Part shown: positions 16,206-18,281 of the stretch, one piece after another
How positions within the stretch are numbered: the stretch's first letter is position 1
Layout of the letters: every line of letters starts with the position of its first letter
NCBI GenBank assembly: GCA_947258625.1
Contig: CAMYJN010000006.1
Location: 1 to 18,281, forward strand
DNA length: 18,281 nucleotides
Reading direction: 5' to 3'
Origin: an uncultured Polyangiaceae bacterium
GTDB taxonomy: Bacteria > Myxococcota_A > Polyangia > Polyangiales > Houyiibacteriaceae
Position numbers and translations under genes: made by a program
Notes under the pieces: model-generated
What the model was told of the DNA's origin: nothing
What the model saw: the letters and a program-made list of their open reading frames with translations, nothing else
Databases searched by the model: none

Positions 16206-17503
16206 CGGGCGCTTCGTAGCACGCGTTCGGTGGATTCGCGCACGATGCCGAGCAAGCGCTCGAGGTCGGCGTCCTCGATGTTGAGTGGCGGAACCAGATA
16301 GACCGTGTTGCCGAGGGGGCGGAGATGCGCGCCGAGCTCGAGGGCGGCTTCGGAGATCTCCCAGCCGACGGTACCCATGTAGCCGCGCACTCCAACGTCG
16401 AATGCAGCGCACATCCCCAGGGCTCGCGGCGAGGACACACCGACGACCTCGTTCATCTCCAGGATGCGAGCGGCGAGTCGCGCCGCTTTGGGCTTCACGG
16501 CTTCCAGAATCTGCTCGTCACGATAAATCGCCAAGACTTCCCGCGCGACCGCTGCGCCGAGCGGGTTGCCGCAAAAGGTGTGTCCGTGCATCAGCGCGCG
16601 GCTTTTGTCTCCGCGAAAGCCATCGTAGATCCGATTGGTCGCCAGGGTCGCGGCAAACGGTAAGACGCCGCCGGAGAGGCCTTTTGCTGTACACAGCAAG
16701 TCCGGCGTGATGCCCGCCTGATCGCACGCCCACATCGGGCCCGTTCGGCCGAAGCCGGTGAAGACCTCGTCCGCGATCAAGAAGGTGTCGGCTCGCTGGG
16801 TCTCTAGTCGAAGCTCGGCGAGCAGCTTCGGCGGGTACATCCGCATGCCAGCGGCGCCTTGGACCAGTGGCTCGACGATCACAGCCGCGATCCGATGGGA
16901 ATCCCTGCGCAGCAGCTCGAACAGATGTTCAAACACCGGCTCCCAGTCCTGGTCGACCGCGTCGGCCGGCCTTCCGACATCAAATAGAATCGGGCGAAAC
17001 ATCGCACTGAACTCGTCGACGGCGCCTGCGCTCATCGCTCCCAGGGTGTCGCCATGGTAGGCGCCGGGAAGGCCGAGGAAGCGCGTGCGCGCCGGTCGGC
17101 CGTTTTGCTGCCAATACTGAAAAGCCATTTTGAGTGCGACCTCGACCGCCGTGGAGCCGTTGTCGCTATAAAAGACCCGGTCGAGCCCGCCCGGGGCAGT
17201 GTCCGCGAGCTCGGCGGAAAGACGCGCGGCCGGCTCGTGCGTCACCGCAGCCAGGGTGCAGTGCATCATACGTTCGGATTGCCGCACGATCGCTGCGCGA
17301 AGACGCGGATGGCCGTGCCCGAGATTGTTGCACCACCAGGACCCGCTGGCGTCGAGCACCCGCCGCCCATCGCCGGCGATCAGCCAGGGCCCCTCAGCCC
17401 GATCCACCACGAAGAGCGGACGGCTTTCGTGATCGTCACTCGAAGTGTACGGGCGCCAAAGGTGCGCCCGATCGAGGGCGATCAGCTCGTCGTCGGTGGG
17501 CAT
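16202..17503 (-). CDS. bioA: Adenosylmethionine--8-amino-7-oxononanoate aminotransferase BioA
   Basis: This PLP-dependent class III aminotransferase makes 7,8-diaminopelargonate in biotin synthesis, using S-adenosylmethionine as amino donor. The ATG at 17503 gives 433 residues beginning MPTDDELIALDRAHLWRPYTS. A TTG ten codons upstream (17533) is a less likely start. The PLP lysine is K274 in TAKGLSGG, and ADEVFTGFGRTG supplies Asp245 and Arg253, the same numbering as in the E. coli enzyme. SDNGSTAVEVALKMA (113-127) binds the cofactor phosphate, and LWRPYTS carries the substrate-pocket Tyr. No other biotin genes are in the window. It overlaps lnt by 4 bases, so lnt translation is probably coupled to it. 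A 533-base repeat-rich gap separates it from ftsK. Confidence 0.95.
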   Translation of the reverse strand: MPTDDELIALDRAHLWRPYTSSDDHESRPLFVVDRAEGPWLIAGDGRRVLDASGSWWCNNLGHGHPRLRAAIVRQSERMMHCTLAAVTHEPAARLSAELADTAPGGLDRVFYSDNGSTAVEVALKMAFQYWQQNGRPARTRFLGLPGAYHGDTLGAMSAGAVDEFSAMFRPILFDVGRPADAVDQDWEPVFEHLFELLRRDSHRIAAVIVEPLVQGAAGMRMYPPKLLAELRLETQRADTFLIADEVFTGFGRTGPMWACDQAGITPDLLCTAKGLSGGVLPFAATLATNRIYDGFRGDKSRALMHGHTFCGNPLGAAVAREVLAIYRDEQILEAVKPKAARLAARILEMNEVVGVSSPRALGMCAAFDVGVRGYMGTVGWEISEAALELGAHLRPLGNTVYLVPPLNIEDADLERLLGIVRESTERVLRSAR

Positions 17504-17649
17504 TGGGCGGACTTTGCGATGAGGTGACAACAAGTGCCAACCGGGGCGCCGTGAGCGCGACGCAGGGGTTCGACGGACGGGGCGGCTTGTAAAAGTGGCC
17601 GGAGGGGCTGGGGGTCAGCGTTCAACTTGCGCTGCCGCGGGCGCTTGGA

Positions 17650-17700
17650 GGCGGGGCGTTGGATTGGTTGCGTGCTGAGGTTTGATTGAACCGCCCCGCC
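17650..17700 (-). repeat. 9-base inverted repeat in the bioA upstream region
   Basis: GGCGGGGCG (17650-17658) and CGCCCCGCC (17692-17700) are exact reverse complements around a 33-base loop, about 150 bases before bioA. A third segment, GGGGCGG (17579-17585), can pair instead with CCGCCCC (17691-17697). Two mutually exclusive hairpins are therefore possible in a bioA leader RNA. The complementarity is certain, but a regulatory switch is only a possibility. Confidence 0.4.
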
Positions 17701-17728
17701 CACCCCCACCCGTAGTCCTCCCTGGCGC

Positions 17729-17777
17729 GGCAATCGCTTCGCTCTGCCTTGCCGGCGCTTCGCGCCGGGCTTCGCCC
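17729..17777. repeat. Cluster of short GC hairpins with TTC/GAA loops
   Basis: Three stems follow closely: GGCAA (17729-17733) with TTGCC (17749-17753), CCGGCGC (17752-17758) with GCGCCGG (17762-17768), and GGGC (17767-17770) with GCCC (17774-17777). Neighbouring stems share two bases each. The last two are closed by the triplet TTC (GAA on the minus strand). The cluster resembles short repeated extragenic palindromes, but copy number cannot be tested in one window. Confidence 0.4.
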
Positions 17778-17825
17778 TTCAGGCTCGCGCTGCCGCCTGC
17801 CGTTGGGGGAGGTGGTTGGTCCTGT

Positions 17826-17837
17826 CTCCGTACGGAG
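17826..17837. repeat. 12-base perfect palindrome beside the large inverted repeat
   Basis: CTCCGTACGGAG is self-complementary over 12 bases and shares its last base with the first base of the large inverted repeat that starts at 17837. It could be a protein-binding site or part of the same element. No gene start is nearby on the plus strand. Confidence 0.4.
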
Positions 17838-18024
17838 GGGCGCGGGGAAACGCGTCATGGGGTGGAGTCGACGTAGCGAGTGACAATCTGCACGGGAGCA
17901 ACCACCGCAGATTGGGCGCGAGCTCCGAGGCGAGGCTTGCGTGGTCAGAGCCCCCAAGTGCATCCGACCACCTTTGCAAGCCGAGCCGTTCGACGTAACC
18001 CCGTGTCGCGTTTCCCCGCGCCCC
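17837..18024 (+). ncRNA. Candidate structured RNA or cruciform element between ftsK and bioA
   Basis: The ends form a long helix. GGGGCGCGGGGAAACGCG (17837-17854) pairs perfectly with 18007-18024. After one T-T mismatch a further nine pairs (17856-17863 region with 17998-18005, including one possible G-U) follow, then a 3x3 loop and five more pairs (17867-17871 with 17990-17994). Inside are two hairpins: CAATCTGC/GCAGATTG (17884-17891, 17907-17914), and a longer one joining 17929-17946 to 17966-17987 with stems GGC/GCC, GGCTTGC/GCAAGCC and GTGGTC/GACCAC. Its interruptions are a tandem G-A pair and a CTTT bulge. The G-U and tandem G-A pairs work only if the plus strand is the RNA. I recognise no known RNA family, and no promoter or terminator is obvious. 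A REPIN- or MITE-like DNA repeat is the main alternative. Confidence 0.35.
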
Positions 18025-18036
18025 GTGTCGACCGCG

Positions 18037-18281
18037 CTACATCGGTCCGACGAGGACTTCTCTTCGTCCGCCCGCCTTGGAGCTCGGCGGCCCGACGACG
18101 CCTTGCTGTTCCATCTGTTCGACGAGCTTCGCGGCCTTGTTGTAGCCGACGCTCAGCTGGCGCTGGACGTGACTGATCGAGCAGTAGCCGGCGTTTGCGA
18201 CCACGGCGACGGCCTTGTCGTAGAGCGGGTCGTCGCTCTCACTGCCGAAGCCCTCGTCGTCGCGTGGCTTCACGATCTCTT
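18037..18281 (-). CDS. ftsK: DNA translocase FtsK, C-terminal gamma domain (rest off the right edge)
   Basis: Only the last 81 or so codons are in the window, and the frame stays open to the right edge. The segment DPLYDKAVAVVANAGYCSISHVQRQLSVGYNKAAKLVEQMEQQGVVGP matches the FtsK gamma winged-helix domain, which reads KOPS sequences to orient the motor and contacts XerD at dif. FtsK pumps chromosomal DNA through the closing septum. The recognition helix segment SVGYNKAAKLVEQME is intact. The protein ends GRREVLVGPM. The stop lies 12 bases from the right arm of the large inverted repeat, so that element would be at the 3' end of the ftsK transcript. Confidence 0.93.
   Translation of the reverse strand, partial: EIVKPRDDEGFGSESDDPLYDKAVAVVANAGYCSISHVQRQLSVGYNKAAKLVEQMEQQGVVGPPSSKAGGRREVLVGPM

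Follow-up and report, generated by a model that had tools for sequence, protein, structure and literature searches.

The element and its place in the window

The window analysed here, 18,281 nt of a draft genome from an uncultured Polyangiaceae bacterium, contains a 503-base gap. It is bordered by the 3' end of a gene that we take to be ftsK (minus strand, stop at 18037) and by the 5' end of one that we take to be bioA (minus strand, start as called at 17533); these and the other gene names in the window were read off the translations, without a family search. The following features lie in this gap:

17837-18024, plus strand: whole copy of a three-way-junction repeat (hereafter the junction element), identified by its fold, as one of 30 places in its own genome and by a covariance model match
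17837-17871, plus strand: 5' arm of the P1 stem, identified by the fold and an inverted repeat; helix 1 pairs vary on both sides
17872-17927, plus strand: P2 hairpin, its foot with a conserved GTGMCAA ... TTGG pairing (fold and conservation)
17929-17987, plus strand: P3 hairpin, in which CTTGCG ... TGCAAG is conserved and the 3' side has a bulge (fold and conservation)
17990-18024, plus strand: 3' arm of the P1 stem, identified by the fold, an inverted repeat and pair changes across copies
17691-17805, plus strand: GC-rich "left block", a separate repeat present in 36 of 71 left flanks of the junction element
17554-17623, minus strand: older, truncated copy that keeps the right half only and adjoins the called start of bioA (profile positions 108-177 by nhmmer, 34.2 bits)

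In the minimum-energy fold of the plus strand, 17837-18024 forms a three-way junction whose closing stem of 31 pairs (18 pairs, a 1x1 mismatch, 8 pairs, a 3x3 loop, 5 pairs) encloses two hairpins. This agrees with the earlier note on this DNA, which had described arms of some 32 pairs with one mismatch, one 3x3 loop and two hairpins. Of the inverted repeats listed for the window, the longest is the one formed by the two arms, which are 35 nt in length, 86% complementary and 118 nt apart. Fold energies are -120.6 kcal/mol for the plus strand (z -10.67) and -111.1 kcal/mol for the minus strand (z -7.58), with none of 200 shuffles as good in either case; on either strand the element is thereby predicted to be far more stable than its shuffled versions, most of all on the plus strand.

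Known structured RNAs (tmRNA, 6S RNA, SRP RNA, RNase P RNA or any Rfam family) were ruled out, as no Rfam covariance model matched in the window at the gathering score. The top match there of a permissive scan, MIR1858, reached 24.6 bits against a cut-off of 137, and the junction elements of six loci from four other genomes (G030, G240, G022 and G012) gave no Rfam match at E<=1. The supposition that no known family is involved has therefore held. A scan of 17400-18281 returned no terminator-like site, and no T run follows the window's junction element.

Dispersal across genomes

By DNA search the junction element occurs at 30 places in its own draft genome (E<=2e-10, window included). In 7 cases the match begins no more than 9 bases from the start of its contig, as is usual for repeats. 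Matches at E<=0.001 were obtained in 18 of the 19 genomes of the genus, from at least 1 to at least 41 per matching genome, and with the 30 places these rule out a single-locus gene. In the family, 18 of 33 genomes matched by DNA search, none of them among the 14 outside the genus. Among 240 genomes of the class, a first covariance model, built from 21 full-length copies, matched 14, of which 11 belong to the genus; the new ones were G030 and G022 of the same family and G240 of another. A second model, run on 377 genomes of the phylum, matched 12 (9 from the genus; 4 of 233 genera) and added G195, from a third family. The same fold was thus recovered in four further genera of the order by the covariance-model search that had been proposed, and in every one of the five genera some genome has three copies or more. 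The window copy itself scored 200.1 bits as a member of the model's own training set. Copy numbers per genome are lower bounds because a limited number of candidates was scored in each: up to 40 and 25 in the DNA searches of genus and family, 10 with the first model and 6 with the second.

An exact pattern scan with one genome per species gave 66 stretches, titled Myxococcales, Polyangiaceae, Deltaproteobacteria or uncultured bacterium. The window's copy had no match in plasmid and phage sequences, and IMG/VR contained neither an exact match to the pattern nor a relative of the G022 transposase described below. Among the genomes sampled, the element turned up only in this genome's order. No earlier account of it was found in the portions of the literature consulted.

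Presence and absence at orthologous sites

Nineteen filled sites were compared with 40 orthologous stretches fetched from relatives (42 pairs of loci), and the covariance model was run on all 40. As 32 of these have no model match (some stop at a contig end), the junction element comes and goes. Full copies are present in six, three in the same orientation (L250, L253, L264) and three in the opposite one (L248, L249, L255), and two stretches have a partial match (L268, L269). When 13 pairs were read base by base, 7 showed no recognisable remnant: in G002 and G015, for example, two convergent genes end a few bases apart where G000 has the junction element. The remaining 6 have a short, or a possible, remnant. 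Two remnants in G013 are mini-hairpins built from arm ends, the expected outcome of deletion between the arms. No target site duplication was visible in the 13 comparisons, where old insertions may have lost theirs. The junction element is dispersed, and present or absent at orthologous places.

The ftsK gap follows the same pattern. A model match was found in this gap at 4 of 16 loci of the genus with an ftsK end (the window, G013, G017 and G009), and only the window's own lies at its place. G013, the closest relative by FtsK, has a full-length copy adjoining bioA (L158), opposite in orientation to 17837-18024; the window's 17554-17623 remnant is what is left of a copy of this type and shares its orientation. 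The G017 copy is likewise turned the other way from the window's; that of G009 has the same orientation, stands about 85 bases from the stop (12 in the window) and is cut by the contig end. A start read as bioA follows ftsK without the element in G001, G002, G007, G011, G014 and G015, the gap in G002 being about 40 bases. By eye, the G003 gap contains a right-arm stub running into another repeat, oriented as the window's copy is and at about its distance from the stop; it may be the window's insertion, decayed.

A locus-specific regulator of ftsK or bioA was rejected because 12 of the 16 ftsK loci are without a model match (several of these contigs end early), and the element has no special link to ftsK. 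The earlier note had proposed a structured RNA beside ftsK and had named absence from relatives as counting against it. Its observation was right, and stronger than its author could know; its reading was half right, in that a plus-strand fold under selection stands (see below) and the tie to ftsK does not. It had also expected many dispersed copies with identical arms if the structure were a mobile repeat: dispersed copies are indeed many, but their arms differ widely yet stay paired.

Conservation of the fold

Covariation was assessed in a model-fitted alignment of 30 junction copies from the five genera. A standard pair is formed in 97.6% of cells, against 70.9% with partners shuffled, and both positions have changed in 48 of the 62 pairs, against 35.5 in shuffles. 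The covariation score is 0.629 compared with 0.153 in shuffles, none of 500 of which scored as high, and with 0.07-0.11 in controls with slid partners; the check for compensatory changes that had been suggested thus turned out positive, and an earlier count on 26 copies agreed. Alignments fitted by a covariance model lean towards the model's structure, but an artefact is unlikely given the slid and shuffled controls and the pairing visible in single copies. Both partners vary in each of the 27 pairs of helix 1, which is the outer portion of the closing stem, and the arms of several G195 and G030 copies, about 30-40 bp long, match perfectly or almost so. Sequence conservation centres on the junction, each motif having its exceptions: P2 has at its foot GTGMCAA paired with TTGG, CGAGG separates the two hairpins, P3 carries CTTGCG and TGCAAG, and CCGTCC follows P3. 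Most of the stem sequence has changed, and the three-armed fold has stayed the same.

Departures from Watson-Crick pairing differ between the strands. Folding without G-U pairs, which treats both strands alike, was applied to 106 distinct copies of at least 150 nt, taken from 91 of the 118 rows of alignment A2 (the rest being antisense or short partial) and 21 of the 28 rows of A3. Plus-strand mismatches comprised 236 G-U against 58 A-C and 230 G-A against 49 C-T; G-U exceeded A-C in 83 copies, A-C exceeded G-U in 9, and 14 had equal numbers. The suggestion that such interruptions are tolerated as RNA pairs only on the plus strand, made for the window's copy, therefore applies to the whole family. 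In the genus the outer stem has 152 G-U against 14 A-C, while the inner hairpins are nearly even (28 against 24), with 141 G-A against 32 C-T.

Since copies share descent, changes were also counted on a tree of 91 copies. This gave 81 inferred changes to G-U against 16 to A-C, 12 each to G-A and C-T, and 126 direct exchanges between Watson-Crick pairs. The loops show a plus-strand excess of C-to-T over G-to-A of about 2.5, so part of the G-U excess is not due to selection. G-C-derived pairs changed 56 times to G-U and 7 times to A-C, where the loops predict 71% G-U (p 8e-4), and A-T-derived pairs 24 and 7 times, where the loops predict 31% (p 1.5e-7); the G-U excess on the plus strand thus persists after allowing for the loop asymmetry. 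RNA and single-stranded DNA predict the identical asymmetry. The plus strand has been kept able to fold as one three-way junction, with an outer stem free in sequence and conserved nucleotides near the junction.

Neighbouring genes and repeats

Neighbours were called by an ORF heuristic of our own for the 78 distinct copies with both ends, of 107 profile matches, in the genus only and including orthologues. The right end of the junction element faces a stop codon in 60 of 76 cases, 36 of them within 25 nt, and by this heuristic a start in the other 16. Where both neighbours were called, 34 of 53 copies lie between convergent genes; in the window, as read from the translations, convergence is seen in 3 of the 15 pairs of neighbouring genes, and the gene to the left of the window's own copy is not convergent. 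At 3 of 5 loci in G195 the element forms head-to-head pairs with the right ends outward. Searches for a shared gene beside the copies of G030, G240 and G195 led nowhere: among 20 flanking proteins compared with Pfam there is no transposase, 3 have no domain and the other 17 contain ordinary ones (GyrB, tyrosyl-tRNA synthetase and YebC among them). Orientation relative to replication was also discarded, as mean GC skew, a weak proxy, is -0.0006 with the element on the plus strand (49 loci), without bias.

The 71 left flanks carry the left block (36), another hairpin repeat (14) or neither (21). The left block contains short TTCG-loop hairpins, and in one G013 gap (L251) its flank sequence remains beside a junction reduced to a mini-hairpin. 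The hairpin repeat that replaces it, in L013, L009 and L073 among others, has the ends GGAGAACGGCTCG and CGAGCCGTTCTCC. A third palindrome (CAGGCGCTCGCGTGGGGGCGG...) was seen by eye inside the junction element in L040 (G000 C155) and against its right remainder in L144 (G007), as if nested. Degenerate arrays of hexamers (CAGTGT/CAGCGC type) also occur in several intergenic gaps of the genus (L262, L272, L169, L171 and others).

Candidate mobilisers

Retrotransposition, with right-half copies as 5' truncations, was rejected: many right-half partial copies in G007 border runs of N, and reverse transcriptase genes are rare in the genus (2 of 19 genomes, the window's own draft not among them). Y1 transposase matches occur in 12 of the 19 genus genomes, loosely in step with junction copy number. 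Y1 matches are lacking in G195 and G240, which have junction copies, and are weak in G030 and G022; G027, G031 and G032 have Y1 matches without a junction match. Within the genus, G011 has a Y1 match and no junction copy; G000 and G010, both about 80% complete, have at least 33 and at least 26 copies and no Y1. A search of 10 Y1 loci and 2 reverse transcriptase loci found no junction element. At an apparently shared chromosomal place (L173, L175, L177, L179 and L180) a Y1 gene has inverted ends of its own (GGGACACTCTCCACC or similar).

The situation in G022 is a lead. All three junction copies found there stand 155-167 nt from the start of a divergently oriented transposase gene of the ISAs1 family (NF033564, E 6.7e-34), and all three such genes, whose proteins are 100, 88 and 70% identical to the query, have a junction copy (L217, L293 and L294). 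Homology among these copies spans transposase and junction; contig ends conceal one boundary of the block, for which no clear terminal repeats were found. A T run follows the junction stem directly on the plus strand in L217 and L293, and further downstream in L294. Relatives of the transposase were absent at E<=1e-6 from the 19 genus genomes, G030 and G195, and the two weak relatives in G240 lie on contigs other than its junction copies.

What the element may be

The junction element is probably a non-autonomous mobile repeat of about 185-195 nt whose plus strand is required to fold, be it as RNA or as single-stranded DNA. Such a unit would spread through a plus-strand single-stranded form, either a transcript or a single-stranded DNA hairpin, and a protein acting in trans could recognise it by its fold instead of a fixed terminal sequence. 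It would survive mainly where it is least harmful, in short gaps between convergent genes, and decay there by deletion between its arms. Counting against a mobile repeat are the lack of a visible target duplication and an outer stem without the fixed terminal sequence of classical ends.

Could it serve the host instead? Plus-strand RNA made by read-through from the left gene might fold at the stop of the right gene and stop or process antisense transcripts. The frequent position between convergent genes, the right ends close to stop codons, the outward right ends of the G195 pairs and the T runs in G022 would all suit such a 3'-end element. It remains unlikely in our estimation, if not far-fetched, given the 32 of 40 orthologous stretches without a match, the 16 right ends that face a start, and a window copy with no T run, no terminator-like site nearby and no convergent gene to its left; convergent gaps are moreover a safe harbour for any insertion. 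A DNA palindrome without single-strand function, in which one arm templates repair of the other, would show paired changes without selection on the fold. In its favour, turnover of the outer stem is fast, with double Watson-Crick changes in 6.6% of pairs even between close copies at 3.3% loop divergence (54 copy pairs), and perfect or near-perfect arms occur in several G195 and G030 copies. It does not predict G-U over A-C beyond the loop asymmetry, an excess that already strains it, nor covariation in the two inner hairpins or conserved junction bases, and we hold it to be quite improbable as a full account; arm-templated repair could act additionally on the outer stem.

Further readings name a mobiliser. 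In one, the junction is an accessory part of an ISAs1-family transposon, whose transposase spread the solo copies. The pairing of the two in all three G022 cases found suggests it; the lack of clear terminal repeats there, the lack of a protein match in the genus, G030 and G195, and the separate contigs of the weak relatives in G240 speak against it and leave it a poor prospect, about level with the palindrome. A bolder version, only slightly less doubtful, makes the junction the structural RNA or single-stranded DNA key of an ISAs1-family DDE transposon, recognised by its fold, and the solo copies fold-addressed mobile units; if true, it would give a DDE transposase a conserved non-coding partner. 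A REPIN-like element moved by a REP-associated (Y1) transposase is very improbable. Y1 is widespread in the genus, the Y1-less genomes that are at least 90% complete (G002, G012, G014 and G015) have only 1-5 copies found, inverted doublets occur, and weak Y1 matches exist in G030 and G022. Copies and Y1 nevertheless occur one without the other both among genera and within the genus, nor does the junction element border the Y1 loci examined, most of which have other ends.

Comparison with known repeat systems

Stem-loop interspersed intergenic repeats, including ERIC, are described in the available part of one account as defined per species and often folding into a single stem-loop, sometimes a double or complex one (PMC2267715). 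The junction element resembles them in being short, non-coding, intergenic, dispersed and strongly folded, and differs from them, as far as that text goes, in keeping a three-way junction across five genera with most stem pairs exchanged (PMC2267715). Prokaryotic MITEs, typically AT-rich according to the accessible sections of a review, are matched in size, inverted ends, intergenic place and stable predicted transcript fold; unlike the MITEs described there, the junction element is GC-rich, lacks a conserved terminal sequence, shows no target duplication in the sites compared and has no matching autonomous element found in the genus (PMC10969869). Its ends are inverted, but their sequence is not common to the family; the 13 comparisons read gave no target site duplication; and an autonomous relative with the same ends is hinted at only by the ISAs1 linkage in G022, where one boundary lies behind contig ends.

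REPINs have conserved REP ends and a variable spacer in the excerpts consulted (PMC3116915). Like REPINs and their RAYTs as portrayed there, the junction element is non-autonomous and extragenic, with inverted doublets in some genomes and compensatory changes in its hairpins; unlike them, it varies in the outer stem, is conserved inside, and has a distribution that needs no RAYT (PMC3116915). Instead of a short REP with conserved ends, the unit is about 185-195 nt long with variable ends and occurs in pairs at some loci only, and instead of a co-occurring RAYT there are copies without a Y1 match in G195 and G240 and a mixed picture within the genus.

The myxobacterium Nannocystis exedens reportedly carries msDNA-like repeats. 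The junction element is likewise a repeat in a myxobacterium, and is unlike a retroelement of that kind in that only 2 of the 19 genus genomes have a reverse transcriptase gene. Classical mobile repeats are recognised by conserved ends. The family described here has free ends and a conserved inner fold on one strand in five genera, so that the addressing of mobile repeats by the shape of a single strand becomes testable. It also displays covariation in what is probably a mobile repeat, and strong covariation alone is thus no proof of a stationary regulatory RNA.
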